DNA of 64,000 bases from Janthinobacterium lividum (GTDB taxonomy: Bacteria; Pseudomonadota; Gammaproteobacteria; Burkholderiales; Burkholderiaceae_D), in NCBI RefSeq assembly GCF_023509035.1, contig NZ_CP075583.1, forward strand, positions 5,270,001 through 5,334,000, written 5' to 3'. The stretch's first letter is position 1, and the number at the start of each line of letters is the position of its first letter. Below the pieces are notes generated by a model that saw only the letters and a list, made by a program, of their open reading frames with translations, had not been told where the DNA came from and did no database searches. This document shows, piece after piece, positions 29,146 to 50,367 of the stretch. Both the position numbers and the translations under genes were made by a program.

Positions 29146-29155
29146 GGCATTCTCC

Positions 29156-35033: not shown

Positions 35034-36476
35034 TTAAAACACTTCATCCTTCAAGTGATACCAGCGGTACAGGAAGCGCTGGCCCAGGCGGCGGAACGGG
35101 GCGAACGCTTGCGACTCGACCAGTTCCATCATGTTGGGATACGGCAGTTTCGAATTGAAGATCGGCAAACCCGTGTCGCTGGCCTTGCCGGCGATGCGTT
35201 CGGCCATGCGCCGGCCTGCCTGCGCCGAGTACATGACGCCGTTGCCGCCGTAACCGAGCGAATAGAAGATCGATTGCTTCGGGTCCGGTTGCACGATGCG
35301 CGGCATCATGTCGTGGCTGACGTCGACCCAGCCCCACCACGAGTAATCGATGGCGATGCCCGTCAGCGCGGGGAACTTGCGATGCAGATCGTTGATCAAA
35401 AACTGTTTGTACTTGTCGTCCGGCGCGTCGGCGCCCGTGATGGCGCTGCGGCTGCCGATCTGCACGCGGTTGTCCGGCATCAAGCGGTAGTAGTGGCGCA
35501 AGATGCGCGTATCGGTGATCACCTGGTGGGTGCGGAAGTTGCACGCCTCGATTTCCGCCGGGGTCAATGGACGCGTGACGAGCGAGTTCGACAAAATCGG
35601 CAGCAGGCGGTTCTTCACTTGCGGATGCAGATGGGGCGAGGTGTAGCCGCCCGTGGCCACGGCCACGGATCGGGCGCGCACCACGCCGCCCGGCGTTTGC
35701 AGATAATGCACGCCGTTGCGCGTTTCCCAGCCCATCACGGGGCTCGATGGATGCACCTTGGCGCCCAGCGCGCGGGCCTTGCGCAGGTAGCCGAAAGCCA
35801 GCTTGCCCGCGTGGATGCCGATGCCTTCCGGCTCGTGCAGCGCGCCGGCCGCTTCCTTGTCATCGACAAATTCGCGCTTGACGGTGTCGGCGTCGAGGAT
35901 GCGGGCATCGTACTTGAATATCTCGCGCATGACCTTGGCTTCTTTTTCCAGCGCAGGCATGGCTTTCGCCTTGTGGGCGATGTACAGGTGGCCGCCCGGC
36001 TGCGGGTCGCAATCGATGTCGGCCGTGATCTTCTTGAACGTTTCCATCGCGTCGCACACTTCCGCGTGCAGTTTCAGGGCCGTGTCCAGCCCATAGCGGT
36101 CTATCCACTGCGAGCGCTTCAGGCGGCCCGTCGTGCATTGGGCCTGGCCGCCATTGCGCGTGCTGCAGCCCCAGCTGACGCGGTTTGCTTCCAGCACGGT
36201 GGCCTTGATGCCGTGTTCCTGGGCCAGAAAGATGGCGCAGGACAGGCCCGTGAAGCCGGAACCGATGATGGCCACGTCGACGTCGATGTCATGCGTGATG
36301 GGGCCATCGTCGGCAGGCGGCTCGCCGGCCGTGCCGATCCAGTAGGTGGGCGCGTAGGCATTGCCGTGGCCGGGACGCTGGGCCACCAGCGGATCGAAGG
36401 CGGGATCGTAGGGCGTGCGGGCGGCGGTGCTGTTGCTGCCCATTACGCCAGGCGGGGTATCGACAGGTTTGTTCAT
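35034..36476 (-). CDS. tauY: taurine dehydrogenase large subunit, FAD-dependent
   Basis: A 480 aa FAD-dependent oxidoreductase of the DadA/GlyOx superfamily. The dinucleotide-binding motif reads VDVAIIGSGFTGLSCA, followed by STRNGGQAQC, typical of the TauY group. With TauX it would deaminate taurine oxidatively to sulfoacetaldehyde and ammonia. The second of two near ATGs (36476) was chosen because AGGA lies at good spacing; the other is two codons earlier. It is 25 bp after tauX and followed by tauABC, an order seen in other taurine degraders. Confidence 0.82.
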   Translation of the reverse strand: MNKPVDTPPGVMGSNSTAARTPYDPAFDPLVAQRPGHGNAYAPTYWIGTAGEPPADDGPITHDIDVDVAIIGSGFTGLSCAIFLAQEHGIKATVLEANRVSWGCSTRNGGQAQCTTGRLKRSQWIDRYGLDTALKLHAEVCDAMETFKKITADIDCDPQPGGHLYIAHKAKAMPALEKEAKVMREIFKYDARILDADTVKREFVDDKEAAGALHEPEGIGIHAGKLAFGYLRKARALGAKVHPSSPVMGWETRNGVHYLQTPGGVVRARSVAVATGGYTSPHLHPQVKNRLLPILSNSLVTRPLTPAEIEACNFRTHQVITDTRILRHYYRLMPDNRVQIGSRSAITGADAPDDKYKQFLINDLHRKFPALTGIAIDYSWWGWVDVSHDMMPRIVQPDPKQSIFYSLGYGGNGVMYSAQAGRRMAERIAGKASDTGLPIFNSKLPYPNMMELVESQAFAPFRRLGQRFLYRWYHLKDEVF

Positions 36477-36501
36477 GGTCATTCCTGGTGAACGTGCTGG
36501 C

Positions 36502-36921
36502 TTAGGCGGCTTTGTTGGCGGTAGCTACGGGTGGGCGATCCTTGCGGAAGGCATTCTTCACGGCGATCTTGCCGTCGCGGAAAGTGAAGATGTCGACCAT
36601 GCGCGCTTCGATGCGCGTGCCATCCGCCTTGGTGCCGGCAAAGGTCGACTCCGTCACGCCGCGCTCGCCGCTGACAAAATGTACGGGGGTGAGCCAGGCG
36701 GCGTCGGGGAAGGTTTGCCAGGCCAGCTCGAAACCGGCGCGCACGGCGTCGCGGCCAATGAAGCTCTTGCCCAGCAAGTCAGGGCCGGCCACGGCATGGA
36801 ACTCGCAGTCGTCCGCCATGGCGCCCATCAGGGCCTCGATATCGTGGCGATTCCAGGCATCGCCGAACGCTTGCAGGAAATCAGTAGTAACGGCGTCGGT
36901 GTGCGGTACAGGGTGGTTCAT
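36502..36921 (-). CDS. tauX: taurine dehydrogenase small subunit, NTF2/SnoaL-like
   Basis: A 139 aa protein of the NTF2-like (SnoaL) fold: FLQAFGDAWNRHDIEALMGAMADDCEF, then FVSGERGVTESTF and FTFRDGKIAVKNAFRK. TauX of known taurine dehydrogenases has this size and fold and pairs with the FAD subunit directly downstream, as here. ATG 36921 has GGAGAC upstream. Its own promoter region (36922-37116) contains the motif shared with both xsc genes, so it probably starts the tauXY-ABC transcript. Confidence 0.8.
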   Translation of the reverse strand: MNHPVPHTDAVTTDFLQAFGDAWNRHDIEALMGAMADDCEFHAVAGPDLLGKSFIGRDAVRAGFELAWQTFPDAAWLTPVHFVSGERGVTESTFAGTKADGTRIEARMVDIFTFRDGKIAVKNAFRKDRPPVATANKAA

Positions 36922-36955
36922 GGTTGTCTCCGTAAATCGTTTTTTGATACGCTAC

Positions 36956-36986
36956 GTTCCGTTTTTTGTCTTTTATTGAATTTAAG
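36956..36986. promoter_or_regulatory. shared taurine-regulon motif upstream of tauX
   Basis: GTTCCG at 36956-36961 and TTGAATTTAAG at 36976-36986 match, with 20-bp offset, the arrangement upstream of both xsc genes. It lies about 35 bp from the tauX start. Probable operator or promoter element. Confidence 0.5.
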
Positions 36987-37116
36987 CCTTAAGCATGGCC
37001 TTGTCAAATCAAATAATTCAAAAAACGGGACGCCCCGTATTCTTTAATGAAATTATGATACTTTCGTGACAATCTGTGAGAATTTGGTCACAGGCCCCCT
37101 TCACAGGCTGGCTGAC

Positions 37117-38895
37117 TTATACGTAGTCTTTGTACTTGTCCAGGTGACGGATCGGTTTGCTCAGCGCATCGCGGCGGAACGGGTCGCCCAGCTCGCGCGT
37201 GCACATGATTTCGATGATGGTGGTCTTGCCTTCATTCATCTGCATGTCGATGGCTTTCTTCAAGGCCGGGCCCACGTCTTCCAGCTTGTCGACCGTGATG
37301 CCTTCGGCGCCCATGGCCCGCGCAATTTCCGCGAAGCTCTGGTTGTCGAGTTCACCGGCCACGAAACGGCGGTTGTAGAAATCGACCTGGTTTTTCTTTT
37401 CCGCGCCCCACTGGCGGTTGTGGAACACCACGGCCGTCACAGGAATGTTGTGGCGCACGCAGGTCATCGTTTCCATCAGGCTCATGCCCCAGGCGCCATC
37501 GCCCGCATACGACACGGCCGGACGGTGTGGCGCGGCCACTTTCGCGCCGATAATGGTCGGGAACGCATAGCCGCAGTTGCCAAAGCTCATCGCCGCAAAG
37601 AAGCTGCGCGGCTTTTCAAAGCGCAGATAGCTGTTCGCCACCGAGTTGATGTTGCCGATGTCGGTCGACACCATCACGTCTTCCGGCATGGCTTTTTCCA
37701 GCTCGCGCAAGACCTGGCGCGGGTGCAGGTAATTGCCCGGCTCTTTCTTTTGCTCTTCGATCATGTCCAGGCTGTACGCATCTTTCTCGTGCGTCCAGTT
37801 CGTCAATTCCTCTTCCCACGCGGCCTTTTCCGCCTGCACGGTGGCATAGCGCTCGTCGCGCGTGGCGTCGCAATCGAGGCTCTTGCCGTCCAGGCGGGCC
37901 AGGATGGCTTTCGCGGCCGCCTTGGCGTCGCCGCAGATGCCGACCGAAATCTTTTTCACCAGGCCCAGCATCTTGTTGTCCGCATCGATCTGGATGATCT
38001 TGGCGTTTTTCGGCCAGTAATCCATGCCGTGCTGCGGCAAGGTACCGAACGGGCCCAGGCGCGAACCGAGGGCCACGACAACGTCGGCCTTGGCGATCAG
38101 TTTCATGGCCGCTTTTGATCCTTGATAACCGAGCGGACCGCACCACAGCGGGTGGCTGGCGGGAAACGAGTCGTTATGCAGATAGCTGTTGACGACGGGC
38201 GCGCCCAGGCGTTCGGCCAGGGCCTTGCACTCTTCGATCGCTTCGCCCATGACGACGCCGCCGCCCGAGATGATGACGGGGAACTTGGCTTTCGCCAGCA
38301 GTTCCGCCGCATCGTTGAGGCTTTGCTCGCCGCCGGCGCCACGGTCCAGGCGGTTCGGTTGTGGAATCTCGGCCTTGATTTCGCCATAAAAATAGTCGCG
38401 CGGGATGTTTAGTTGCGTCGGGCCCATTTCCGACATGGCGCGGTCAAAGCAGCGGCCCGTGAATTCCGCCATGCGGGCCGGGTTCGTCACGTGGCCTTGA
38501 TATTTGGTAAATTCCTCGAACATCGGCAACTGGTTCGCTTCCTGGAAGCCGCCCAGGCCCATGCTCATCGTGCCCGTCTCAGGGGTAATGATCACGACCG
38601 GGGTGTGCGCCCAGTAGGCGGCGGCGATGGCCGTGACGCAATTGCTGATACCGGGGCCGTTCTGACCGATGACCACGCCATGGCGACCCGAGACGCGGGC
38701 GTAACCGTCGGCCATGTGGCCGGCGCCCTGCTCGTGCACGACGGGAATCAAGCGGATGCCGGCAGGCGCAAAGATATCCATCGGATCCATGAAGGCCGAG
38801 CCCATGATGCCGAACATGTCGGTCACGCCATTGGCGGCCAGGGTTTCCACGAACGCTTCGGAAGGCGTCATCTTTTGCGGGCCTACAGGTATCGC
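37117..38895. repeat. direct repeat, xsc copy 1
   Basis: Nearly identical to 48467-50245 (offset 11,350 bp, same orientation). The stretch 37561-38199 shows no difference by eye from 48911-49549, and about 360 bp near 38524-38886 also match exactly. Differences are clustered outside these blocks. Confidence 0.9.
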
Positions 38896-38931
38896 TGCGG
38901 CGGCGGCTTTTTGCTCGGTCATGTCATTCAT
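37117..38931 (-). CDS. xsc: sulfoacetaldehyde acetyltransferase, copy 1
   Basis: A 604 aa thiamine-diphosphate enzyme that converts sulfoacetaldehyde plus phosphate to acetyl phosphate and sulfite. The cofactor-activating Glu lies in VHEQGAGHMADGYARVSG. The ThDP motif starts GDGAWGMS and ends in VVFHNRQWG. PETGTMSMGLGGFQEANQ is a strong Xsc marker. ATG 38931 has AGGAGAC upstream. Between its N-terminal variable region and its stop it differs from copy 2 at only two residues (Asn/His and Phe/Tyr, around residues 170-180). It faces the IclR gene and precedes tauX by 195 bp. Confidence 0.95.
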   Translation of the reverse strand: MNDMTEQKAAAAAIPVGPQKMTPSEAFVETLAANGVTDMFGIMGSAFMDPMDIFAPAGIRLIPVVHEQGAGHMADGYARVSGRHGVVIGQNGPGISNCVTAIAAAYWAHTPVVIITPETGTMSMGLGGFQEANQLPMFEEFTKYQGHVTNPARMAEFTGRCFDRAMSEMGPTQLNIPRDYFYGEIKAEIPQPNRLDRGAGGEQSLNDAAELLAKAKFPVIISGGGVVMGEAIEECKALAERLGAPVVNSYLHNDSFPASHPLWCGPLGYQGSKAAMKLIAKADVVVALGSRLGPFGTLPQHGMDYWPKNAKIIQIDADNKMLGLVKKISVGICGDAKAAAKAILARLDGKSLDCDATRDERYATVQAEKAAWEEELTNWTHEKDAYSLDMIEEQKKEPGNYLHPRQVLRELEKAMPEDVMVSTDIGNINSVANSYLRFEKPRSFFAAMSFGNCGYAFPTIIGAKVAAPHRPAVSYAGDGAWGMSLMETMTCVRHNIPVTAVVFHNRQWGAEKKNQVDFYNRRFVAGELDNQSFAEIARAMGAEGITVDKLEDVGPALKKAIDMQMNEGKTTIIEIMCTRELGDPFRRDALSKPIRHLDKYKDYV

Positions 38932-38986
38932 GGGTGTCTCCTGGTCTGTAGTGATTGAGGCTGTTGAAATGATCAACTAATTTATC

Positions 38987-39035
38987 AAAAATCGGTATAT
39001 TTTGTTCCGAAATTTGATATACAATTCAATTTAAG
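38987..39035. promoter_or_regulatory. xsc copy 1 control region
   Basis: The 24-base string AAAAATCGGTATATTTTGTTCCGA style block (38987-39010) is repeated upstream of xsc copy 2. It runs into GTTCCG (39004-39009), TTTG (39013-39016) and TTCAATTTAAG (39025-39035). GTATAT and ATATAC (38995-39000 and 39017-39022) form an inverted repeat. Located between xsc and the IclR gene, it could control both. Confidence 0.6.
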
Positions 39036-39129
39036 CGTTCAGCATTCAAAAGTCAAACAGAATTTCAAGGAAACGGTACAATTTGAGTTCGAAAATGAAA
39101 TAACACACCGATACCACACCGAGGCCACC

Positions 39130-39987
39130 ATGGACATGATTTCATCCCCAAAACTTGAGCCGGAAAAACTGGAAGGCGACACGCCCACGATGCGTTTGTT
39201 TGCCTTGCTGGAAGTGATTGCCGAGAAAGACCAGTTGCTATCGCTGCAAGCGCTGGTGGAAGAAACGGGCCTGCCGAAGCCCACCCTGCACCGCATGCTG
39301 CAACAGCTGGAAAGCGTGGGCGTGCTGCAGCGCGAAAGCGATGGCCGCCACTACAGCACGGGCGTGCGCCTGCGCCGCCTGGCCTCAAACCTGCTGATTA
39401 ACAACACTTTCCATGGCGCCCGCCGCATGGTCTTGCGCCAGCTGGTCGAGGAAGTGGGCGAAAGCTGCAACCTGACGGCCTTCAGCGGCAGCGAAGTGGT
39501 GTACCTGGACCGGGTGGAAACGGCGGCCCCGCTGCGCTTCTATCTGCACCCCGGTTCGAGGGTGCCGGCCCACTGCTCGTCGAGCGGCAAGCTGTTCCTG
39601 GCGCAAATGACGCCCGTGCAACGGCGCCGCCTGCTGGGCCATATGGAATTGACGCGCTTTACGGACAAGACGGAAACGGACCCCGTCAAGCTGGAACGCG
39701 AACTGGAACTGGTGCGCCGCAACGGCTATGCGCTGGACGACGAGGAATTCCTGCCCGGCCTGCTGTGCGTGGCCGTGCTGGTGCCGAACCCGAACGGCCG
39801 CTCGAACCTGGCCGTGGCGATCCAGGCGCCCATCATCCGTTTGACGCATGACAAGGCTTTACATTTCTTGCCTGCATTGCAGCGCGCCGCGCAAGCCCTG
39901 GCCGCCATCGAATCGGAAACCATGCCGACGACGGGCGGGGACGACGGCGCCGCATTACAAGCCGGTCATTCGGCTGGCAATTCATAA
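39130..39987 (+). CDS. IclR-family transcriptional regulator
   Basis: A 285 aa regulator. The N-terminal winged HTH reads SLQALVEETGLPKPTLHRMLQQLES; the C-terminal IclR effector domain contains CNLTAFSGSEVVYLDRVE, PAHCSSSGKLFLA, and DDEEFLPGLLCVAVLV. It is divergent from xsc copy 1, and the shared motif there and at tauX and xsc copy 2 makes it the probable regulator of taurine degradation. Known taurine regulators in alphaproteobacteria are MocR-type, so an IclR role is an inference. cobS follows 41 bp downstream in the same direction. Confidence 0.85.
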   Translation: MDMISSPKLEPEKLEGDTPTMRLFALLEVIAEKDQLLSLQALVEETGLPKPTLHRMLQQLESVGVLQRESDGRHYSTGVRLRRLASNLLINNTFHGARRMVLRQLVEEVGESCNLTAFSGSEVVYLDRVETAAPLRFYLHPGSRVPAHCSSSGKLFLAQMTPVQRRRLLGHMELTRFTDKTETDPVKLERELELVRRNGYALDDEEFLPGLLCVAVLVPNPNGRSNLAVAIQAPIIRLTHDKALHFLPALQRAAQALAAIESETMPTTGGDDGAALQAGHSAGNS

Positions 39988-40028
39988 CCGCTGCGGCATC
40001 CATGCTGCGGCTAGACCAGGAGAACAAG

Positions 40029-41003
40029 GTGCCAGATTCACGCCAACATCCCCCCGCCGCAGCGGCGCAAACCTTACAGTCCGTGCGCAGCCTGTTCAAT
40101 ATCGACAGCGACCTGCTCGTGCCCGTCTTCACGGAGCGCGACCCGCATGTGCCCGACATCGACCCCGCCTACCGCTTCAACAAGGATGTGACCCTGGCGA
40201 TTTTGGCCGGCTTCAGCCACAACCGCAGAGTGATGGTGCAAGGCTTGCACGGCACGGGCAAGTCCACGCATATCGAGCAAGTGGCGGCGCGCCTGAACTG
40301 GCCTTGCGTGCGCGTCAACCTCGACGGCCACATCAGCCGCCTGGATCTTGTCGGCAAGGACGCCATCGTGCTGCGCGAGCAGCAGCAGGTGACGGAATTC
40401 CAGGAAGGCATCGTGCCCTGGTCATTGCAGCGCCCCGTGGCCCTGATTTTCGACGAGTACGACGCGGGCCGCCCCGACGTGATGTTCGTCATCCAGCGCA
40501 TCCTCGAGCGCGATGGCAAGTTCACCCTGCTCGACCAGAACCGGGTCATCACGCCGCATCCTCACTTCCGTTTGTTCGCCACATCGAACACGGTGGGACT
40601 CGGCAACTTGAACGGCATGTACCACGGCACGCAAGTGCTCAATCACGCGCAGATCGACCGCTGGAACATCGTTGCCACCTTGAACTATCTGCCGCAGGCG
40701 GAAGAAACGGAGATCGTGCTGGCGCGTGTCCCCGTCATGAATGACGAAGCGGGCCGCCAGCTGGCAAGCAGCATGGTGGCCGTGGCCAGCCTCACGCGCC
40801 ACGGTTATGCGGCGGGCGACCTGGCCTGTTTGATGTCGCCGCGCACGGTCATTACCTGGGCCGAAAATTGCCAGATCTTCCGCGACCCGGCGCTGGCCTT
40901 CCGCCTGTCCTTCCTCAACAAATGCGACGAGGCCGAGCGGCCCATGGTGGCCGAGTATTACCAGCGCTGTTTCAATGAGGAATTGCTGGCGAGCCAGGCA
41001 TGA
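40029..41003 (+). CDS. cobS: CobS-like AAA+ ATPase
   Basis: A 324 aa MoxR-type AAA+ ATPase strongly resembling the CobS subunit of aerobic cobaltochelatase. The N-terminus has FNIDSD and ERDPHVPDIDPAYRF; Walker A GLHGTGKST is at 72-80; Walker B ALIFDEYDAGRPDVMFVIQR follows. GTG 40029 was chosen because AGGAG lies six bases upstream; an ATG at 40002 has no such signal. It overlaps cobT by ATGA. No cobN or other corrin genes are in the window. Its neighbours are RNA-repair genes, so a role apart from cobalt insertion is possible. Confidence 0.85.
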   Translation: MPDSRQHPPAAAAQTLQSVRSLFNIDSDLLVPVFTERDPHVPDIDPAYRFNKDVTLAILAGFSHNRRVMVQGLHGTGKSTHIEQVAARLNWPCVRVNLDGHISRLDLVGKDAIVLREQQQVTEFQEGIVPWSLQRPVALIFDEYDAGRPDVMFVIQRILERDGKFTLLDQNRVITPHPHFRLFATSNTVGLGNLNGMYHGTQVLNHAQIDRWNIVATLNYLPQAEETEIVLARVPVMNDEAGRQLASSMVAVASLTRHGYAAGDLACLMSPRTVITWAENCQIFRDPALAFRLSFLNKCDEAERPMVAEYYQRCFNEELLASQA

Positions 41004-42730
41004 GCACGGAAGCGACCGCGCCTGCTCCCTACACGCGCGAACAACAGGAAACGGATGAATTGTGCGCGGGCGCCATCCGCGCGCTGAGCGGCGTTTCCGC
41101 CATCCGCTACCGGGGCCGGCGCCTGCACGATGGCCACCGCCCCCTGCCCATCCATGCGGCCCATCTGCAGCCCGATGCGGCGCTGCAGGATTTGCCCTCG
41201 CTGCGCGGCGCGGCCGACAGCGTAGCCCTGCGCCTGCTACACACGGACGCTGCCTTGCACAAGTCCTTCTGCCCGCCAGAACCCGTGGCGCGTCTGGTGT
41301 TCGAGCTGCTGGAGCAGTTAAGAGTGGAAACGCTTGCGCCAGATCAACATGCCGGTGTGATCAGCAACCTGCGCCACCGTTTTACTGCCTGGTCGCACGC
41401 GTTTTACGATTCCGGCCTGGCCGAAGGCGCTTCGGGCTTGCTGCTGTACACGGTATTCCAGATGTGCTGGTCGCGCCTGACGGCCCGGCCCGTGCTGGAA
41501 AAGACGGAAGATTTCATCGAGGCCACGCGCTGGTCCGTTTCTTCGCAACTAAGTGGCGACCTGGCGGGCTTGCGCCGCCACCGATTGGACCAGTCTGCCT
41601 TTGCCCGCCACGCGCTGGCCATCGCCCATGCCGTCGACGCCGTGCTGAAAGAGGCGCAGGCGGCGCGCGATGGCAGCCAGGACGACGGGGGCGACGCCAA
41701 GGCGCAGGCGGCCTTCAAGCTGCTGCTCGATTTCGACAGCGACAACGACCACCTTCCCGATGCGGCTCCCTTGGGCGAAAGCCGCGCCTTCAGCGATGGC
41801 GATGGCGCCTACCGCGCCTACTCCACGGCGTACGACCGCGAGGAAAACGCGGGCGAACTGGTGCGCCGCGCCCTGCTGCTCGACTACCGCGAGCGCATGG
41901 ATGCGCGCATCGCCAGCCTGGGCATCAACACGGCCCGCCTGGCGCGGCGCTTCACGCAATTGCTGGCCGTGCCCCGGCGCGACGGCTGGTCGTTCGGTGA
42001 AGAGGAAGGTTATATCGATGGCCGGCGCCTGGCGCAGCTGATCAGCTCGCCCTCAGAGCGCCGCTTGTTCCGCAGGGAACAATTTTTGCCGCAAGCCGAT
42101 TGCCTCGTCACCTTTCTCGTCGATTGCTCCGGCTCCATGAAGACGCATGCGGAATCCGTGGCCGTGCTGCTCGACATTGTGCTGCGTGCGCTGGACCAGG
42201 CCGGCGTCGCCACTGAATTGCTGGGTTTTACGACGGGCGCCTGGAACGGGGGACGAGTCAAACGCGACTGGATGCGCGCCCGCTCGCCCGCCAACCCGGG
42301 CCGCTTGAACGAACTCGTGCACATGGTCTTCAAGGATGGCGATACCAGCTGGCGCCGCGCGCGGCCCGGCATCGCGGCCCTGTTAAAGGCTGATTTGTAC
42401 CGCGAAGGCGTCGATGGCGAAGCCGTGGATTGGGCGTGCAAGCGCATGCTGGCGCGCCCGGAACGGCGGCGCATCCTGCTCGTCGTGTCTGACGGTTGCC
42501 CGATGGATACGGCCACGAATCTGGCCAACGACGAGTTTTACCTGGCCCAGCATCTGAAGCAGGTAGTGGCGCGCCGCGAAGCGCAGGGCGCCATCGAGAT
42601 ATGCGGGTTGGGACTGGGCCTGGACCTGGGCGCCTACTACAGCCGCAGCCTGGCCACCACCCTGCCCGCCTCGCTGAACAATGCGCTGTTCATCGAGATC
42701 GCGCAGTTGCTCGGGGGCATGAGGCGATAA
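41000..42730 (+). CDS. cobT: CobT-like VWA-domain protein
   Basis: A 576 aa protein resembling cobaltochelatase subunit CobT. The C-terminal von Willebrand A domain has an intact MIDAS start, LVDCSGSMKT, and a later conserved VVSDGCPMDT. Preceding it is a short acidic stretch (LDFDSDNDHLPD) as in CobT. The start ATG overlaps the cobS stop (ATGA), implying coupled synthesis; the two should form an AAA+/VWA ring complex. It ends 4 bp from the convergent stop of the HD-Pnk gene. Without CobN nearby the partner enzyme is unknown. Confidence 0.83.
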   Translation: MSTEATAPAPYTREQQETDELCAGAIRALSGVSAIRYRGRRLHDGHRPLPIHAAHLQPDAALQDLPSLRGAADSVALRLLHTDAALHKSFCPPEPVARLVFELLEQLRVETLAPDQHAGVISNLRHRFTAWSHAFYDSGLAEGASGLLLYTVFQMCWSRLTARPVLEKTEDFIEATRWSVSSQLSGDLAGLRRHRLDQSAFARHALAIAHAVDAVLKEAQAARDGSQDDGGDAKAQAAFKLLLDFDSDNDHLPDAAPLGESRAFSDGDGAYRAYSTAYDREENAGELVRRALLLDYRERMDARIASLGINTARLARRFTQLLAVPRRDGWSFGEEEGYIDGRRLAQLISSPSERRLFRREQFLPQADCLVTFLVDCSGSMKTHAESVAVLLDIVLRALDQAGVATELLGFTTGAWNGGRVKRDWMRARSPANPGRLNELVHMVFKDGDTSWRRARPGIAALLKADLYREGVDGEAVDWACKRMLARPERRRILLVVSDGCPMDTATNLANDEFYLAQHLKQVVARREAQGAIEICGLGLGLDLGAYYSRSLATTLPASLNNALFIEIAQLLGGMRR

Positions 42731-42734
42731 TGCC

Positions 42735-43877
42735 TCAAGCTACCTCGTAGCGTACCGTGTGCGCTTCCATCGGCAGCGGAATTTCCCAGTTCCACAGCAT
42801 CGCTTGCAGCTTCTTGTTACTGAGCGAGGTGTCGCGCTGGCCGTTGCGCCGCAGTAATTCCTTGCGCGGCTGCTCCAGGTACACGAGTTCCACCTCCGCG
42901 TGGTATTTATAGAGCAGGTTGAGCGTCTTTTCGCGCATCAGTTTTGACAGATGCGTGGCGTTCCACACGAACGGTTCGCCACGGCGCAATAGTTCGCGCG
43001 CCCGCTCTTCCGCATAGTCGCCCACCTGCCCTTCGTTCTTGCCGTGCTTCAAGCCCAAGGCGATGCGCGCATCATCGAAGGATACGACGGGCAGGCGCGG
43101 ATGGTGCTTGTCCACCCACGTATTCTTGCCCGACGCGGGCAAGCCCGACATGACGATCACATGCGAGCCCGGCTCCTGGAACAGGGAGTAATCGGGATGC
43201 GCCTCGGCGCCGCGAAAATACTTGACGCGCGTGTGATCGTCGACAAAGACCCGCCGTTGGCCATAGCAGCCTTCCTCGCGCGCCAGCTCGCGGAACAGCT
43301 CGATGGCGTCGAGTATGCGCTGCGGATCGGGGCAGATGCGGCCGCGGATATCCGCCTCGGCCAGCATGGCCAGCAGGCGGATATCGACCTGCCACGACAG
43401 TTCGCGCACGGTGAACTCGGGCGTCACGCCGCGCCGCGAGGTTTCCAGCGCGAAGAACGGCACCTGGTGCACATTGATCAGGCGACAGATTTCCTCGCGC
43501 GCGGCAAACGGCGCGTCGCAGTCCCACAGGGCGATGCGCGCATCGAGGGCGCCCTTGCGCGAGTGGCCGGGCTGGCCGATGGCGCCCGTTGCCGGGTCGA
43601 TCACCGTGGTGCTGCACTTGGCCACGTCGTGCAGCAAGGCGGCCAGGAACAAGATTTCCTGTTCCGCCCGCGTGGCTTGCTGATATTCAAGCATGCCCAG
43701 CAGCGATTCCACCACCATCATGGTATGCGTCCACACGTCGCCTTCCGCGTGGTAGATGGGATTTTGCGGCGTCGTCTTCGCCAGTTCCAGCTGCGGGAAA
43801 GCAGCCAGGCAGGCGCTAAAGTCGGGCGACTGGCCAGCTGCCGGCACCAGTTGTTGCAGGGTTTTCCAGTTCATCAT
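42735..43877 (-). CDS. HD-Pnk: HD phosphoesterase fused to polynucleotide kinase
   Basis: A 380 aa two-domain RNA/DNA end-healing enzyme. The N-terminal HD domain has His43, His51 and the His83-Asp84 pair (ALLHDVAK), fitting a metal-dependent 2',3'-phosphoesterase. The C-terminal P-loop kinase domain begins GLPASGKNT (245-253), with FDDARIALG downstream, fitting a 5'-OH polynucleotide kinase. Such HD-Pnk proteins were described from Runella. ATG 43877 has AAGGAG upstream and overlaps the stop of the RNA ligase gene (ATGA), so end healing and sealing are made together. Confidence 0.85.
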   Translation of the reverse strand: MMNWKTLQQLVPAAGQSPDFSACLAAFPQLELAKTTPQNPIYHAEGDVWTHTMMVVESLLGMLEYQQATRAEQEILFLAALLHDVAKCSTTVIDPATGAIGQPGHSRKGALDARIALWDCDAPFAAREEICRLINVHQVPFFALETSRRGVTPEFTVRELSWQVDIRLLAMLAEADIRGRICPDPQRILDAIELFRELAREEGCYGQRRVFVDDHTRVKYFRGAEAHPDYSLFQEPGSHVIVMSGLPASGKNTWVDKHHPRLPVVSFDDARIALGLKHGKNEGQVGDYAEERARELLRRGEPFVWNATHLSKLMREKTLNLLYKYHAEVELVYLEQPRKELLRRNGQRDTSLSNKKLQAMLWNWEIPLPMEAHTVRYEVA

Positions 43878-44761
43878 TTTGTACTCCTTGAGAAGGCAGC
43901 CAGTTCGTCTAGCGACTGGCAGGTGTGCAAGCCCAGGCTCTCCCACGTCACCAGTGGCTGCGGCGCGTACAGGTCCACGCCCTCGGCCAGCAGATTCGGG
44001 ATCAGGGGACGCGTGCTGTGGTGCGAGCCGCTGTCGAGGATGGTTTGCGTAAAGTCGTGCCGCACCAGCTTGTAGCGGGCCAGCACTTGCTCGTCGTCTT
44101 CCACTTTCAGGTACAAGCCTTCCGCGTGGTCGGACTTGTCCGTCTGTTTCCAGCACAGGTCCAGCGGCAGGCGCTCGCGCGCCACCACGTTGTCAAACGC
44201 ATCGCGCCACAGCAATGACTTGGCCAGCGAATGGCGCAGCAGCTGCCACAACTGCTTGGGCGACGTGGGCATCTTGCCCGCATACAGCACGGGGACGGAC
44301 AACACGGGCGAGCCGGCCAGCATGGCGTGGCGGCGCGCCGTCGACAGGAACATTTGCGTACGGCGGCAATACACGTCGAACTCGTTGAAATAATGGGGCA
44401 GGCGGTCGTAAAACACGGAATGCTTGCTGTAAGACCATTCGCCAAACAGCACAAATTGATCTTCCAGCAGATGCAGCAAGGCGTGTTCATGCGCATGGGC
44501 CCACGGTTTGAGCAGGTTGAACTGGCGTTCGCTGCCGCCGCCCGCCAGGTAGTGGCCGCGCGACTGCAGCAGCACCTCGCCCGCATCGCTGAACGACACG
44601 GCAGAGTTGGCGCCATCGATTTTTTCCTCAATGACGACGTACTGGCCGGCCAGCTTTTTCAAGGGCATCTGATCGGAGCCGTCGTCGCCATCCTGCAGGC
44701 GCGAGCCTTCCAGGTGCGGCGTGCGCGGGTATTTAAATAAGGGTAAAGATTGTAAAAACAT
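43874..44761 (-). CDS. ATP-dependent RNA ligase, Rnl2-like
   Basis: A 295 aa nucleotidyltransferase-type ligase that would seal 3'-OH/5'-phosphate RNA ends. Motif I is EEKIDGAN with the adenylated Lys47; LFGEWSYSKHSVFYDRLPHYFNEFDVY matches motifs III/IIIa of the Rnl2 family; EGLYLKVEDDE and YKLVRHDF match motifs IV and V. ATG 44761 begins just before the family N-terminus (FKYPRTPHLEGSRLQ). The Shine-Dalgarno is weak (GGGACG). The longer open frame upstream is probably leader. Coupled to HD-Pnk by a 4-base overlap and divergent from rtcB. Confidence 0.85.
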   Translation of the reverse strand: MFLQSLPLFKYPRTPHLEGSRLQDGDDGSDQMPLKKLAGQYVVIEEKIDGANSAVSFSDAGEVLLQSRGHYLAGGGSERQFNLLKPWAHAHEHALLHLLEDQFVLFGEWSYSKHSVFYDRLPHYFNEFDVYCRRTQMFLSTARRHAMLAGSPVLSVPVLYAGKMPTSPKQLWQLLRHSLAKSLLWRDAFDNVVARERLPLDLCWKQTDKSDHAEGLYLKVEDDEQVLARYKLVRHDFTQTILDSGSHHSTRPLIPNLLAEGVDLYAPQPLVTWESLGLHTCQSLDELAAFSRSTK

Positions 44762-45184
44762 AGCGTCCCACGCCGCGTTCACCGGGGCGTGTCCATACAG
44801 GGTCAGGGGTGCTGACGACGTGTTCGGGCGTGGACGATCGAGACTAGTGTCACGGATACGTGTGCGGAAAGAGCAAAAACAGTGCCGCAGCAATCGGGGG
44901 CGTCAACGCGCCGAACGATGCTGCAGAGAGCATTTCGTCAGCGTTAGCAGGTGATGGCGAAGTAGCGAGGCACTTTTGGCTCCAATAAGGAAGAGGTTCG
45001 AGAAAGAACGTGGAATATATAGGCTGTTTGCATATTTTGCAAGTGGCGCTGCGTATTGTGCGCCCCTCGCTTTGCAATCTCCACAAAATTTGCTAAGCTG
45101 GCAGGACTTCCTGTCGCTGCTGCGTGGAAAACAAACATGACCCTTTAAAAAGGGCCGTGCATTCGTTATTTCCGGAGCAGAATC
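44762..45184. other. divergent intergenic region of the RNA-repair genes
   Basis: A 423-bp region between the RNA ligase (-) and rtcB (+). It holds a perfect palindrome TTGCA-TATTT-TGCAA (45028-45042) that could be an operator. A possible rtcB promoter is TTGCAA (45072-45077), 16 bp, TAAGCT (45094-45099). No sigma-54 site of the kind used by RtcR-controlled rtcBA was found by eye, and no credible gene is present. Both open frames of 64-78 codons here lack Shine-Dalgarno signals. Confidence 0.4.
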
Positions 45185-46591
45185 GTGTTTCCCATATCCA
45201 GATTACAAAAAGCCCTGCGCCGCCAGGGCATCGCTGTCGCCTATGCCGACGGCATTTATACACTCAGCAATCCGCACGCCCAGGCGTCCGTGCTGCTGCC
45301 CCACAACTTTCCCCTCGAGGAAAAAGCCGTGCGCCAACTGATGGAGTTTGCCGCCGTCGCCGTGCCCGGCCAGGATGGCCATGTGTGCAAGGCCTGCGCC
45401 ACGCCCGACTTTCACCCTGGCAGCATCGCGCCCGTGGGCAGCATCGTCGCCACCAGTCCCGACATGGTGATCCCCGCTATCCCCGGCACGGACATCGCCT
45501 GCGGCATGCGCCTGATCACGACGGGTCTGAGCCTGGCGCAGTTCGAGGCACGCAAGCCGCAGCTGTTGAGCAAGCTCAAACATGTGCTGCTGGAAGACGG
45601 CCGCAACGTGCCGCTGCGCTCGAAGGCGTTTGCCGCCCTCTTCGACGTGGGGCCGGAAGCGTTCATCGACAGCCTGCACAAGGATGGCATGTGCGGCTTG
45701 TGGCCACGGGTCGACAAGCAGCGGCTGCTGCGCGAGCTCGACGATTGCATTGCCCTGCGCGAACTGGGCGGCGGCTTGCGCCATGCACCCGAAGCGCTGG
45801 TGGGCACGCGCGAAGTGATACGCGACCCCAGCCTGGGCACCACGGGATCGGGCAACCATTTCGTGGAAATCCAGCTGGTCGATACCGTCATGGACCGCCA
45901 CGCCGCGTACCGGCACGGGCTGGTGCCGGGCGAAGTGGTCGTCATGATCCACAGCGGCAGCCGCGACGTGGGCTTTTTCGTCGGCAGCCGCTGGATGGAC
46001 CGCGCCAAGGAAGCGTGGCCGACAGGCGTGCGCCACCCGCAATCGGGCCTGTACGGCTTGACGGGCCAACTGGCTGGCGAATACATGGACGCCATGGGCG
46101 TGGCGTCGCGCTATGCCTGGGTCAACCGCATGGTCCTGGCCGAGCTGGTGCGCGACAGCCTGTCGCAGGTGTATGCGCACGATACCTCGCGCCTGGTGGT
46201 GGACGTGCCGCACAACGTCATCTTGCGCGAGCACGGCATGAACATCCACCGCAAGGGCGCCACGCCGGCGCGCGAGGGCGACCTGGCGCTGATCCCCGGT
46301 TCCATGGGCGACTATTCCTATGTGGCAACGGGCATGGGCAATCCAGACTGGCTGTGGTCGTGCTCGCATGGCGCCGGGCGCAGCATCCGCCGCCAGGCCA
46401 TGCGCGCCATGCGGCCCACGGTGGGCGGCGACGAGATGGCCTTCCAGTGCGTGACCCTGCGCGAGGAACGCCGCGTCGAGGAAGCGCCGATGGCGTACAA
46501 GAAGATCGGTCCCGTCATCGCTGCGCAGGAGGAAGCGGGCTTGCTGCAATCGGTGGCGCGCCTTAAACCTTTGCTGACATTCAAGGCTTAG
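45185..46591 (+). CDS. rtcB: RtcB-family RNA ligase
   Basis: A 468 aa GTP-dependent RNA ligase joining 2',3'-cyclic phosphate or 3'-phosphate ends to 5'-OH ends. Metal-binding motifs are visible: GTDIACGMRL, GTTGSGNHFVEI, MIHSGSRDVG; the guanylylated histidine is His395 in SHGAGR. GTG 45185 has CGGAG eight bases upstream. No rtcA, rtcR or archease gene is next to it. Its stop overlaps the stop of the convergent TSUP gene by four bases (TTAG). With the neighbouring ligase/HD-Pnk pair the cell has two different RNA sealing chemistries side by side. Confidence 0.92.
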   Translation: MFPISRLQKALRRQGIAVAYADGIYTLSNPHAQASVLLPHNFPLEEKAVRQLMEFAAVAVPGQDGHVCKACATPDFHPGSIAPVGSIVATSPDMVIPAIPGTDIACGMRLITTGLSLAQFEARKPQLLSKLKHVLLEDGRNVPLRSKAFAALFDVGPEAFIDSLHKDGMCGLWPRVDKQRLLRELDDCIALRELGGGLRHAPEALVGTREVIRDPSLGTTGSGNHFVEIQLVDTVMDRHAAYRHGLVPGEVVVMIHSGSRDVGFFVGSRWMDRAKEAWPTGVRHPQSGLYGLTGQLAGEYMDAMGVASRYAWVNRMVLAELVRDSLSQVYAHDTSRLVVDVPHNVILREHGMNIHRKGATPAREGDLALIPGSMGDYSYVATGMGNPDWLWSCSHGAGRSIRRQAMRAMRPTVGGDEMAFQCVTLREERRVEEAPMAYKKIGPVIAAQEEAGLLQSVARLKPLLTFKA

Positions 46592-47364
46592 CGCAGCAAT
46601 TGCGGCACGGCGGCCGCCATCAAGGAGATACCGATGGCGGTCAGCACAGCAAACGCGATGCGGCGCATGCCGCGCTGGGCGATCGGTGGCGGGTAGCGCT
46701 TGCCGGCCATCGTGGCCAGCACGCCCACGGGCAAGGCCAGCGCGCACAGCAGCAGTACTTTTGCATCGAGCTGGCCCTGGCTGCCCGCCATCAGCGAACG
46801 CCCGCCCGCGCTGATGGCGAACAGGAAGATCAGGCTGTAGCGGATGGTGGTCAAGCTCATTTCCTGGCGGTAAAACTGGTACACGAGCGGTGGCCCGGCC
46901 AGCGAAAACAGGCCGGAAAACAGGCCGCCGCACACGCCGCTGATGAAGAAGCTGCGCTTGTCGGCCGCGCCCGGTCCGGGCGGCGCCTGCAGCAGGATGC
47001 TGACGCCGCCATACACGATGGCCGCGCCCAGCAGCAGCTTCAGCAAGGGCGCATATGCCTGGTCCAGATATCCCAACAACAATACGCCGGCCGCCATGGC
47101 CGGCAGCAAGCCGATGCTGGCGGCGCGGATGGCGCGCCAGTCCAGGTGGTGCAAGGCGCCCGGCAAGGCCACCAGGCAATTGGCCAGCGACAATAAACTG
47201 ACGAGGGCCGCCAGCGCGGGCACGGGCGCCAGGCCCAGTCCGCTGGCCACCCCCATGACGATCATGCCCAGGCCAAAACCCGTGACGGTCTGGAAATACG
47301 TGCCCGCCGCCACCACGCCCAGCAGCGCCAGCACGGGCAAGCTGAACAGGAAGTCAGCGTCCAC
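46588..47364 (-). CDS. TSUP-family transporter (TauE/SafE type sulfite or sulfonate exporter)
   Basis: A 258 aa membrane protein with about eight helices and the two TauE/SafE repeats: FQTVTGFGLGMIVMG near the start and FISGVCGGLFSGLFSLAGPPLVYQF in the middle. Directly after pta and xsc it probably exports sulfite released by Xsc. GTG 47364 gives an 11-base overlap with the pta stop; a TTG at 47391 would add nine charged residues and is less likely. It converges on rtcB. Confidence 0.8.
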   Translation of the reverse strand: MDADFLFSLPVLALLGVVAAGTYFQTVTGFGLGMIVMGVASGLGLAPVPALAALVSLLSLANCLVALPGALHHLDWRAIRAASIGLLPAMAAGVLLLGYLDQAYAPLLKLLLGAAIVYGGVSILLQAPPGPGAADKRSFFISGVCGGLFSGLFSLAGPPLVYQFYRQEMSLTTIRYSLIFLFAISAGGRSLMAGSQGQLDAKVLLLCALALPVGVLATMAGKRYPPPIAQRGMRRIAFAVLTAIGISLMAAAVPQLLR

Positions 47365-48355
47365 CCTGGGCCTGCACGGCCGTGACCGCAATGACGTTGT
47401 AGACGTCGTCGGCGCTGCAACCGCGCGACAAATCGTTGGCGGGCTTGTTCAAGCCTTGCAGCAAGGGGCCGATGGCGACGGCGCCGCCCATGCGCTCGGC
47501 CAGCTTGTAGCCGATATTGCCCGCGTCCAGGTTCGGGAACACCAGCACATTCGCGCGGCCGTTGACCACGGAATCCTTGACTTTTCTCTGCGAAATCTCG
47601 GCCACGATGGCAGCATCGAGCTGCACGTCGCCATCGATGGCCAGCAGCGGACGCTGGGCCTTGACCCGGTCCGTGGCCGCATGCACCTTGTCGACGGCCG
47701 CGTGGTGGGCGCTGCCGCTGGTGGAAAACGACAGCATGGCGACCCGGGGCTCTTCCATCAGCAACGCTTGCGCGCTGTCGGCGGCGGCCATGGCGATGTC
47801 GGCCAATTCCTCCGCTTTCGGATCGACGACGAGGGCGCAATCGGAAAAGATGAAACCGCCCTTGAGGCTGTGGAAAGGTTCGCACAGCATCATCAGGAAA
47901 AAACTGGACACCAGCTTGAAGGCAGGGTCGACGCCGATGATCTGGATGGCGCTGCGCACCACGTCGGCCGTCGTGTGCACGGCCCCCGCCACGCAACCGT
48001 CAGCGTCGCCCAGGCGCACCATCAGGTTGGCGTAGCACAGCGGGTCTTGCACGGCGATCCTGGCCTGCTCCACCGTCATGCCCTTGGCCTGGCGCAGCAC
48101 AAACAATTGCTGGGCATAGTGTTCCGACTCATCGGAAATTGCCGGGTCGACCAGGCGCACGGCGTCCAGGTCCAGCGCATGTTCGCGCGCCAGCGCAAGG
48201 ATGGCGGCCGGCTTGCCGACGATGGTGATGTGCGCCAGGCCTTCGCTTGCCGCACGCGCTGCCGCCTGCAGCACGCGCGCATCGTCGCCCTCGCACAAGA
48301 CGATGTTTTTCGGCACGGCGCGGGCTTGGGCTATGATGCGGTGCAGGGCTTTCAT
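47354..48355 (-). CDS. pta: phosphate acetyltransferase (short form)
   Basis: A 333 aa enzyme that converts acetyl phosphate from Xsc to acetyl-CoA. It is the single-domain Pta/EutD form. Landmarks are NIVLCEGDDARVLQAA, LMVRLGDADGCVAGAVHTTADVVRSAIQIIG, and VFPNLDAGNIGYKLAERMGGA. ATG 48355 has GGAG six bases upstream; the open frame extends 15 codons farther without signal. It follows xsc copy 2 after a hairpin terminator, and is followed by the TSUP exporter in overlapping frames. Confidence 0.92.
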   Translation of the reverse strand: MKALHRIIAQARAVPKNIVLCEGDDARVLQAAARAASEGLAHITIVGKPAAILALAREHALDLDAVRLVDPAISDESEHYAQQLFVLRQAKGMTVEQARIAVQDPLCYANLMVRLGDADGCVAGAVHTTADVVRSAIQIIGVDPAFKLVSSFFLMMLCEPFHSLKGGFIFSDCALVVDPKAEELADIAMAAADSAQALLMEEPRVAMLSFSTSGSAHHAAVDKVHAATDRVKAQRPLLAIDGDVQLDAAIVAEISQRKVKDSVVNGRANVLVFPNLDAGNIGYKLAERMGGAVAIGPLLQGLNKPANDLSRGCSADDVYNVIAVTAVQAQGGR

Positions 48356-48372
48356 GGCGACTCCAATTCGGT

Positions 48373-48417
48373 AAAAAAAGTGCCGGAACCACGGAAGCAT
48401 GCAGATGGCTCCGGCAC
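48373..48417 (-). terminator. hairpin terminator between xsc copy 2 and pta
   Basis: On the minus strand GTGCCGGA and TCCGGCAC form an 8-bp stem with a 22-base loop, followed by T7 (A7 at 48373-48379). A second hairpin, CCCGGC/GCCGGG, lies just before it at 48424-48441. Partial termination here would make xsc transcripts exceed pta transcripts. Confidence 0.7.
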
Positions 48418-48466
48418 ATAAAACCCGGCGCGATTGCCGGGGTCATACAAGGATCGGGCAGACTGC

Positions 48467-50245
48467 TTAGACGTAGTCTTTGTACTTGTCCAGGTGACGG
48501 ATCGGTTTGCTCAGCGCATCGCGGCGGAACGGGTCGCCCAGCTCGCGCGTGCACATGATTTCGATGATCGTGGTCTTGCCTTCATTCATCTGCATGTCGA
48601 TGGCTTTCTTCAAGGCCGGACCCACGTCTTCCAGCTTGTCGACCGTGATGCCTTCGGCGCCCATGGCCCGCGCAATTTCCGCGAAGCTCTGGTTGTCGAG
48701 TTCACCGGCCACGAAACGGCGGTTGTAGAAATCGACCTGGTTTTTCTTTTCCGCGCCCCACTGGCGGTTGTGGAACACCACGGCCGTCACAGGAATGTTG
48801 TGGCGCACGCAAGTCATCGTTTCCATCAGGCTCATGCCCCAGGCGCCGTCGCCCGCATACGACACGGCCGGACGGTGCGGTGCGGCAACCTTGGCGCCGA
48901 TGATGGTAGGGAACGCATAGCCGCAGTTGCCAAAGCTCATCGCCGCAAAGAAGCTGCGCGGCTTTTCAAAGCGCAGATAGCTGTTCGCCACCGAGTTGAT
49001 GTTGCCGATGTCGGTCGACACCATCACGTCTTCCGGCATGGCTTTTTCCAGCTCGCGCAAGACCTGGCGCGGGTGCAGGTAATTGCCCGGCTCTTTCTTT
49101 TGCTCTTCGATCATGTCCAGGCTGTACGCATCTTTCTCGTGCGTCCAGTTCGTCAATTCCTCTTCCCACGCGGCCTTTTCCGCCTGCACGGTGGCATAGC
49201 GCTCGTCGCGCGTGGCGTCGCAATCGAGGCTCTTGCCGTCCAGGCGGGCCAGGATGGCTTTCGCGGCCGCCTTGGCGTCGCCGCAGATGCCGACCGAAAT
49301 CTTTTTCACCAGGCCCAGCATCTTGTTGTCCGCATCGATCTGGATGATCTTGGCGTTTTTCGGCCAGTAATCCATGCCGTGCTGCGGCAAGGTACCGAAC
49401 GGGCCCAGGCGCGAACCGAGGGCCACGACAACGTCGGCCTTGGCGATCAGTTTCATGGCCGCTTTTGATCCTTGATAACCGAGCGGACCGCACCACAGCG
49501 GGTGGCTGGCGGGAAACGAGTCGTTATGCAGATAGCTGTTGACGACGGGGGCGCCCAGGCGCTCGGCCAGGGCCTTGCACTCTTCGATCGCTTCGCCCAT
49601 GACGACGCCGCCGCCCGAGATGATCACGGGGAACTTGGCCTTGGCCAGGAGCTCCGCCGCATCGTTGAGGCTTTGTTCGCCGCCAGCGCCACGGTCCAGG
49701 CGGTTCGGTTGTGGAATCTCGGCCTTGATTTCGCCATAAAAATAGTCGCGCGGGATGTTCAGTTGCGTCGGGCCCATTTCCGACATGGCGCGGTCAAAGC
49801 AGCGGCCCGTGTATTCCGCCATGCGGGCCGGATGGGTGACGTGACCTTGATATTTCGTAAATTCCTCGAACATTGGCAACTGGTTCGCTTCCTGGAAGCC
49901 GCCCAGGCCCATGCTCATCGTGCCCGTCTCAGGGGTAATGATCACGACCGGGGTGTGCGCCCAGTAGGCGGCGGCGATGGCCGTGACGCAATTGCTGATA
50001 CCGGGGCCGTTCTGACCGATGACCACGCCATGGCGACCCGAGACGCGGGCGTAACCGTCGGCCATGTGGCCGGCGCCCTGCTCGTGCACGACGGGAATCA
50101 AGCGGATGCCGGCAGGCGCAAAGATATCCATCGGATCCATGAAGGCCGAGCCCATGATGCCGAACATGTCGGTCACGCCATTGGCGGCCAGGGTTTCCAC
50201 GAACGCTTCGGAAGGCGTCATCTTTTGCGGGCCTACTGGGGTTGC
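48467..50245. repeat. direct repeat, xsc copy 2
   Basis: Partner of the repeat at 37117-38895 in the same orientation. No insertion sequence or terminal repeat borders either copy. Confidence 0.9.
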
Positions 50246-50293
50246 TGCGGTAGTGGCAGCGGCGGCGGCTTTTTGGTCGGACAAATCGGTCAT
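48467..50293 (-). CDS. xsc: sulfoacetaldehyde acetyltransferase, copy 2
   Basis: A 608 aa ThDP enzyme with the same motifs as copy 1 (VHEQGAGHMADGYA, GDGAWGMS, VVFHNRQWG). The only protein differences outside the N-terminal 20 residues are two substitutions near residues 170-185. The N-terminus, MTDLSDQKAAAAATTAATPVG, is slightly longer. ATG 50293 has AAGGAGAC upstream. Unlike copy 1 it stands with pta and the TSUP exporter, the usual xsc-pta arrangement, so it may be the original. Its upstream region carries the same 24-base block as copy 1. Confidence 0.95.
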   Translation of the reverse strand: MTDLSDQKAAAAATTAATPVGPQKMTPSEAFVETLAANGVTDMFGIMGSAFMDPMDIFAPAGIRLIPVVHEQGAGHMADGYARVSGRHGVVIGQNGPGISNCVTAIAAAYWAHTPVVIITPETGTMSMGLGGFQEANQLPMFEEFTKYQGHVTHPARMAEYTGRCFDRAMSEMGPTQLNIPRDYFYGEIKAEIPQPNRLDRGAGGEQSLNDAAELLAKAKFPVIISGGGVVMGEAIEECKALAERLGAPVVNSYLHNDSFPASHPLWCGPLGYQGSKAAMKLIAKADVVVALGSRLGPFGTLPQHGMDYWPKNAKIIQIDADNKMLGLVKKISVGICGDAKAAAKAILARLDGKSLDCDATRDERYATVQAEKAAWEEELTNWTHEKDAYSLDMIEEQKKEPGNYLHPRQVLRELEKAMPEDVMVSTDIGNINSVANSYLRFEKPRSFFAAMSFGNCGYAFPTIIGAKVAAPHRPAVSYAGDGAWGMSLMETMTCVRHNIPVTAVVFHNRQWGAEKKNQVDFYNRRFVAGELDNQSFAEIARAMGAEGITVDKLEDVGPALKKAIDMQMNEGKTTIIEIMCTRELGDPFRRDALSKPIRHLDKYKDYV

Positions 50294-50317
50294 GGCTCAG
50301 TCTCCTTACAGTTTTAT

Positions 50318-50367
50318 AAAAAATCGGTATATTTTGTTCCGATATTTGAAATATATGTTCAATTTAA
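50318..50367. promoter_or_regulatory. xsc copy 2 control region
   Basis: The ATCGGTATATTTTGTTCCGA block is the same as upstream of xsc copy 1. It is followed by TTTG (50345-50348) and TTCAATTTAA (50358-50367). Offset between GTTCCG (50336) and TTCAATTTAA is 22 bp. It lies 43 bp from the start codon. Confidence 0.6.

Follow-up and report, generated by a model that had tools for sequence, protein, structure and literature searches.

A CobS/CobT-like AAA+/VWA pair of Janthinobacterium lividum that probably belongs to a sulfonate island and not to RNA repair

Several bacterial systems place an AAA+ motor and a partner with a von Willebrand factor A (VWA) domain beside a metabolic enzyme, among them NorQ-NorD, CbbQ-CbbO and RavA-ViaA. 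The clients of such MoxR/VWA pairs are often metal or redox enzymes. The cobaltochelatase CobN-CobS-CobT, which acts in late cobalt insertion, has the same two subunits and catalytic motifs as the pair described here, which lies in a stretch of 64,000 nucleotides of Janthinobacterium lividum (contig NZ_CP075583.1, positions 5,270,001 to 5,334,000; the window), part of a 6.26-Mb single-contig genome. Unlike the cobaltochelatase subunits, the pair occurs in a genome without CobN and beside xsc, the gene for sulfoacetaldehyde acetyltransferase. Taurine and related sulfonates are widespread bacterial carbon and sulfur sources, and Xsc is the sulfite-freeing step of their breakdown. We consider it probable (about 0.65) that the pair belongs to an island for C2 sulfonates (taurine, sulfoacetate) and has changed its client, the likeliest new one being Xsc, rather than serving the RNA-repair proteins encoded next to it, as the initial annotation had suggested. 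The genes on which this reading turns are the following.

40002-41003, plus strand: CobS-like MoxR-type AAA+ ATPase, 333 amino acids from the first ATG (putative start)
41000-42730, plus strand: CobT-like VWA protein, 576 amino acids, with CobT and CobT_C matches over cut-off (CobT_C 153 bits)
37117-38976, minus strand: Xsc1, sulfoacetaldehyde acetyltransferase (TIGR03457 1090 bits, cut-off 676), likely start at 38931
48467-50293, minus strand: Xsc2, a near-identical second copy (TIGR03457 1091 bits)
39130-39987, plus strand: IclR-family regulator (IclR_C 126 bits), divergent from xsc

The five genes that the initial annotation had listed at the locus (cobS, cobT, RNA ligase, HD-Pnk and rtcB) are all present and open, and profile matches agree with their domain-level names. 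The start given for cobS, 40029, is a GTG inside the reading frame; the first ATG lies at 40002, and the start is provisional. The iclR gene, 14 bp ahead of cobS, had been omitted. The CobS-like protein matches AAA_5 (41 bits) and CobS_N, both over cut-off, and its gene overlaps cobT by 4 bp. With intact Walker A and B motifs, an adjacent VWA protein carrying a metal ion-dependent adhesion site (MIDAS) and overlapping genes, the pair is of the MoxR AAA+/VWA type. The Walker A motif GLHGTGKST, Walker B and the sensor-1 residues of CobS are near-invariant across 80 aligned sequences, and the MIDAS residues of CobT (DxSxS, T, D) are kept in 79-82 of 82 aligned rows; because these motifs persist across the clade, the pair should be active as a motor.

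Chains named CobS and CobT in the PDB match the window pair, and CobS is much closer to the cobaltochelatase CobS (465 bits) than to CbbQ/NorQ-type chains, which match it weakly (32-35 bits). Nevertheless, both subunits fall below the equivalog cut-offs of the chelatase families, CobS with 509.5 bits against 558.55 (TIGR01650) and CobT with 298.6 bits against 759.05 (TIGR01651). Identity to one Sinorhizobium CobS is 65% and to one Sinorhizobium CobT 30%, the window CobT being shorter (576 versus 631 amino acids) and less acidic; its closest named proteins are from Janthinobacterium. Conservation of the motor together with divergence of the adaptor is consistent with a switch of client, and makes the pair a natural case for studying how MoxR/VWA motors choose their clients. 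The initial annotation had called the pair an orphan, and this holds for the genome as a whole: PF02514 (CobN/ChlH), which matched in 5 of 14 control genomes, gave no match there at E<=0.001, so that CobS and CobT lack a known chelatase partner in it. As a candidate defence system the pair was rejected, since PADLOC returned weak matches, to CobS only (14-24 bits).

The association with xsc was found by scanning one genome per species for CobT. At least 598 stretches matched, 469 of which encode a relative, and the best 80 loci (11 from Janthinobacterium and 69 others) were searched with the window proteins, each to 10 kb of flank or the contig end, partners farther off being missed. Outside Janthinobacterium, 56 of the 69 loci contain xsc, at no more than 3 kb from cobST in 52 of those 56; of the 13 loci without it, 11 are truncated on one side less than 2 kb from cobST. 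At least 4 kb of flank is available on both sides in 43 of the 69 loci, and one side falls short of this in the other 26; xsc is found in 41 of the 43. The exceptions are L049, which retains an oxidoreductase/SnoaL gene pair, and L050, which encodes SauS, sulfoacetaldehyde dehydrogenase (717 bits, cut-off 600). Among the 69 loci the other partners were counted less often: Pta in 31, the oxidoreductase in 24, TauE in 21 and SorA in none, a zero limited by flanks of at most 10 kb, as SorA in the window itself lies about 10 kb from the pair. In 28 of them, tauE or pta lies beyond cobT, on the other strand and at a distance of 32 bp to 7.8 kb. A cluster of small proteins, represented by L016:3223-3669, a member of the Lin0512 family, which has no known function, also lies near cobT in 21 of these loci, mostly just downstream.

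Three genome surveys gave the same association. In the family (165 genomes), the 12 genomes with CobT all fell among the 15 with Xsc over cut-off, and without Janthinobacterium the Fisher test gave 3e-5, on three CobT genomes and with kinship ignored. In the class (229 genomes), all three with CobT at 480 bits or more have Xsc, 9 genomes having Xsc at 900 bits or more. In the phylum (359 genomes), CobT at 421 bits or more and Xsc at 1110 bits or more occurred in the identical 7 genomes, from 4 genera, at distances of 1.3-28 kb (Fisher 7e-15, kinship ignored). The class and phylum thresholds were chosen after viewing the gaps in the scores, which run from 485 to 285 bits (CobT) and 918 to 602 bits (Xsc) in the class sample and from 421 to 254 and 1111 to 600 bits in the phylum sample. 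Pooled, 19 of 19 distinct genomes with the xsc-linked CobT clade carry Xsc. The association is also seen in further families and orders (G143, G224 and a Photobacterium plasmid), with differing gene orders: xsc is divergent from cobST on the Photobacterium plasmid, while in L212 xsc, a phosphotransacetylase-family gene, cobS and cobT all point in one direction.

In a FastTree phylogeny of 104 CobTs rooted on Sinorhizobium, with long branches flagged and the finer order unsure, a single clade (local support 98) unites 65 xsc-linked rows, 12 from Janthinobacterium, 13 without xsc in view, and L208. The L208 branch is too long to place; this locus (L208:8574-16617, genome G047) holds a divergent CobS/CobT, with CobT 31% identical, whose neighbours are pta and TauABC-like genes; Xsc is encoded on another contig of that genome, which gave no CobN match, so the sulfonate link may reach beyond the xsc-linked clade. 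Distant CobT matches (204-285 bits) in nine genomes of the class, G047 among them and eight of the nine without CobN, were set aside as other clades. Further distant orphan CobS/CobT pairs, with differing neighbours and in genomes without a CobN match, were seen at L206, L207, L210, L211 and L213-L215. A plasmid collection also contained CobT-like VWA genes of weak similarity (25-29%), with Acinetobacter, Klebsiella and Aeromonas accounting for 183 of the 216 matching records. Most of these plasmids are about 110 kb long, and most of the genes carry the label hypothetical.

The remaining sulfonate genes of the window, together with two putative operators in the gap between xsc and iclR, are listed below.

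47354-48400, minus strand: Pta, phosphate acetyltransferase (TIGR00651 365 bits, cut-off 311)
46588-47391, minus strand: TauE/SafE-type sulfite exporter (PF01925 65 bits, cut-off 32.6)
36502-36921, minus strand: SnoaL-like small protein beside the oxidoreductase (PF12680 77 bits)
35034-36482, minus strand: flavin adenine dinucleotide (FAD) oxidoreductase, DAO type (PF01266 196 bits)
32088-34910, minus strand: TauABC taurine transporter (TauC 32088-33011, TauB 32962-33777, TauA 33819-34910)
28525-30430, minus strand: SorAB sulfite dehydrogenase (SorB 28525-29145, SorA 29156-30430)
38993-39009, no strand: putative IclR operator 1, xsc side (CGGWAC-N5-GTWCCG type, 11 of 12 positions)
39074-39092, no strand: putative IclR operator 2, iclR side (10 of 12 positions), 81 bp from operator 1

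Known taurine and sulfoacetaldehyde clusters comprise TauABC, taurine dehydrogenase, Xsc, Pta, TauE and SorAB, and the same genes occur here if the FAD oxidoreductase is perhaps the large subunit of taurine dehydrogenase, a name given to it from its position; on that assignment the window looks like a complete taurine catabolism island. TauA scores over its cut-off (TIGR01729, 392 bits), as do both SorAB subunits (NF052245, 668 bits; NF052246, 116 bits), while the best models for TauB and TauC, PRK11248 and PRK10160, stay below theirs. Pta is expected to take the product of Xsc. The two xsc genes are 98.0% identical in DNA over 1789 bp and form direct repeats that flank CobS/CobT and the repair genes. 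In four Halomonas loci (L048, L063, L070 and L073), two xsc copies likewise flank cobST, and their identity of 99.7-100% suggests gene conversion or else an assembly effect.

In 19 of the 69 loci outside Janthinobacterium, iclR is the gene immediately preceding cobS, in the same orientation. Among 27 xsc/iclR gaps, the best putative operator site reached at least 10 of 12 positions in 23 (against 17% of shuffles), and a second site at least 9 of 12 in 22 (against 36%), with a motif derived from the same regions on which it was scored. Independent support for the operator pair thus comes solely from the spacing, the best two sites lying 72-82 bp apart in 13 of the 27 regions. Because this palindrome pair recurs in relatives with that spacing, it suggests joint control of xsc and iclR-cobST. 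In scans for other signals, sigma-70 sites (3 against a mean of 1.6) and terminators (7 against a mean of 7.5) were near chance, and a candidate sigma-54 site ahead of rtcB was discarded, such sites being at chance level (106 in the window against a mean of 115 in shuffles).

From the computed neighbourhood, co-occurrence, clade, intact motifs and lack of CobN in this genome, we infer a model of ATP-driven remodelling with Xsc as client and IclR control. A MoxR AAA+/VWA pair of cobaltochelatase-motor ancestry would have switched client; its CobS-like ring would hydrolyse ATP, the diverged CobT-like protein, with its MIDAS intact, would dock on the client, and the two together would remodel or activate it. 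The likeliest client would be Xsc, a thiamine-diphosphate enzyme that converts sulfoacetaldehyde to acetyl phosphate and sulfite, and the shared IclR regulator may switch the pair on with xsc. Xsc is put forward because it is the most constant neighbour. More tentatively, and at somewhat less than even odds, the cobaltochelatase-derived motor might be a dedicated Xsc activase comparable to Rubisco activase, with the AAA+ ring kept and the VWA adaptor re-targeted. In contrast to NorQ-NorD, CbbQ-CbbO and RavA-ViaA, the proposed client is a thiamine-diphosphate enzyme, for which we know of no MoxR/VWA pair. If the model is true, a conserved ATP-driven partner of Xsc would alter the understanding and engineering of the sulfonate pathway, and an Xsc activase would currently be hidden in databases as 'cobalamin biosynthesis'. 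It would also correct annotation, in that cobS/cobT labels in CobN-less genomes should not count as B12 biosynthesis. Among the literature matches listed, none tied xsc or taurine to cobaltochelatase, CobS/CobT or MoxR, which is weak evidence of novelty since most subscription journals lie outside the search; the passages of one paper that mention sulfoacetaldehyde acetyltransferase and CobS, and those of PMC12879404, are unrelated to such a link.

Several results weigh against a sulfonate role with Xsc as client. Linkage cannot tell which gene of the island, xsc or another, encodes the client, and the operator motif has the circular origin described above. In the three surveys, 9 of 28 distinct Xsc genomes are without the clade CobT (19 have it), and 17 further phylum genomes, 13 of them from one family, encode an Xsc-like protein of 45-48% identity, their CobTs being of distant type and on another contig (11) or more than 100 kb away (6). 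Xsc as a class is hence independent of the pair, which is an optional partner of one Xsc subfamily. As to CobN, it was looked for in 46 genomes, from 46 of the 80 CobT loci, and was present in 15; its absence from the other 31 is less sure where the assembly is a draft, as many of the 46 are, with no stated completeness. In 11 of the 15, no second CobT was seen at E<=1e-15, so that the pair could also serve CobN in them, while the remaining four (Paraburkholderia) have a second, divergent CobT that is sister to the xsc-linked clade in the tree. CobN was likewise present in four of five tested survey genomes with the clade CobT outside Janthinobacterium (G143, G282, G323 and G324, not G224). 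A double role, in sulfonate use and with CobN, is thus possible in CobN-positive genomes; it cannot hold in Janthinobacterium.

These results bear on two other explanations of the pair. It might serve another client of the same island, such as the taurine oxidoreductase, a sulfite dehydrogenase or a transporter, with xsc linked through the pathway only; we hold this to be unlikely. MoxR/VWA pairs commonly act on metal or redox enzymes, SorAB is part of the window island and is also close to cobST in L123, 9 loci share a gene cluster represented by a molybdopterin oxidoreductase as its tested member, and several Xsc genomes do without the pair, yet the partners vary among the 69 loci in the proportions given above, Xsc being the most frequent and SorA unseen. 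That the pair is simply the CobST of a cobaltochelatase working with CobN, and in Janthinobacterium a relic or the partner of an unrecognised CobN-like protein, appears improbable. The 65% identity of CobS to its Sinorhizobium counterpart and the CobN-positive genomes, including the 11 in which just this CobT was seen, speak for it. However, the motifs are kept although 31 of the 46 genomes and all nine Janthinobacterium genomes with CobT in the family survey are without CobN, in four genomes that carry CobN and CobT on one contig (G401, G436, G282 and G324) the two are more than 100 kb apart, and both subunits score below the equivalog cut-offs.

The last explanation, that the pair acts as chaperone or remodeler of a repair protein (the ligase, HD-Pnk or RtcB) or shares a stress response with these proteins, we regard as very improbable, and it is largely contradicted by distribution. 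Within one genus the genes do occur together: ligase and HD-Pnk are adjacent or close to CobT in 11 of 11 Janthinobacterium loci, and in the family survey CobT (12 genomes) and HD-Pnk (16) occur together in 9, with an odds ratio of 63 (p 1e-8) that arises solely through Janthinobacterium, to which all 9 belong. None of the 69 loci outside the genus holds ligase, HD-Pnk or RtcB, the 43 well-flanked ones included, and of the nine family genomes outside it that have either CobT or HD-Pnk none has both. G224, from the class sample, carries the two genes at a distance of 1.3 Mb, and G300, the tenth Janthinobacterium of the family sample, has ligase and HD-Pnk with neither CobT nor Xsc over cut-off. 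Nine stretches around HD-Pnk genes away from cobT also showed no CobS or CobT; ligase and HD-Pnk were together in eight of them (L112, L113 and L115-L120, the ligase of L120 being distant and confirmed by Pfam), the ninth, L114, being a short contig. Furthermore, the ligase and HD-Pnk genes read towards cobT, in convergent transcription, and another open reading frame separates cobT from HD-Pnk in 8 of the 11 Janthinobacterium loci. A conserved neighbourhood as the basis of an RNA-repair link was consequently rejected, being seen in one genus alone. Of the two findings by which the initial annotation would be refuted, the lack of such a neighbourhood in relatives was thus obtained, whereas the other, a cobalamin pathway with CobN that uses the pair, was not found in the window genome. 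In the literature on RNA ligase, RtcB and polynucleotide kinase, cobT was absent among the matches listed.

The sulfonate reading instead leaves the repair genes as separate cargo. They sit inside the island, between cobT and tauE, as follows.

42735-43877, minus strand: HD-Pnk (HD 26 bits, AAA_33 64 bits, both over cut-off)
43874-44761, minus strand: ATP-dependent RNA ligase (PF09414 116 bits; KIDG motif)
45185-46591, plus strand: RtcB (PF01139 314 bits)

Because the cobT-tauE interval varies within Janthinobacterium, ligase/HD-Pnk and RtcB look like unrelated later neighbours in a cargo slot. RtcB is found in 5 Janthinobacterium loci (5 of the 7 that reach tauE) and varies within the genus; the frames separating cobT from HD-Pnk form two clusters of four, the protein tested being NmrA-like in one cluster and of PEP-CTERM type in the other; and the ligase is followed in 4 loci by a further cluster, from which a two-partner-secretion ShlB protein was tested. 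A recent foreign origin of the repair genes was rejected, their GC content and GC content at third codon positions being like the rest.

The two RNA-sealing routes named in the initial annotation are themselves borne out by domains and motifs. HD-Pnk combines an N-terminal HD domain (LLHDVAK) with a C-terminal P-loop kinase domain (GLPASGKNT), and by profile its kinase half matches PDB chains of L-seryl-tRNA(Sec) kinase (2e-6) and polynucleotide kinase 1ly1 (3e-5). RtcB carries DIACG, GSGNHF, HRKGA and HGAGR, which we take to be its active-site motifs. The description of the ligase as Rnl2-type is tentative, its one basis being the match to the Pfam family PF09414; searches of the PDB by sequence and profile returned no relative of it, and its AlphaFold model has a mean predicted local distance difference test score (pLDDT) of 89.9. 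The ligase gene comes first, and its stop codon shares the sequence ATGA with the start codon of HD-Pnk, which makes the translational coupling that had been asserted plausible. The first 44 residues of the ligase frame are probably untranslated, because aligned relatives begin at a later methionine. No non-coding RNA was found near the repair genes (Rfam at E<=1, 36000-52000).

Deinococcus DRB0098, which is described as sharing an operon with DRB0100 and a macro-like gene (PMC1997131), has in common with it the HD and kinase architecture and a ligase-type gene alongside; the ligase/HD-Pnk pair of the window, unlike that operon, is without a third, macro-like gene. For jumbo phages, MoxR-vWA pairs and RNA-repair genes are treated in separate sections (PMC7824862). 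Another genome of the class contains a larger RNA-repair island (L120:806-15218) with RtcB-RtcA-RlaP, DUF4132, HD-Pnk, ligase, a proteasome-like subunit, an RF-1-domain (PrfH-like) gene, a second RtcB and DUF4291.

Elsewhere in the window, ARAGORN identified just two tRNA genes, near 58 kb, a tRNA-Ser(CGA) pair at 57697-57786 and 58120-58209, about 0.3 kb apart. Finally, two secreted proteins are encoded at 24193-28185; from their translations they appear glycosidase-like by eye and contain long Thr-Pro and Asp-Pro repeat linkers.

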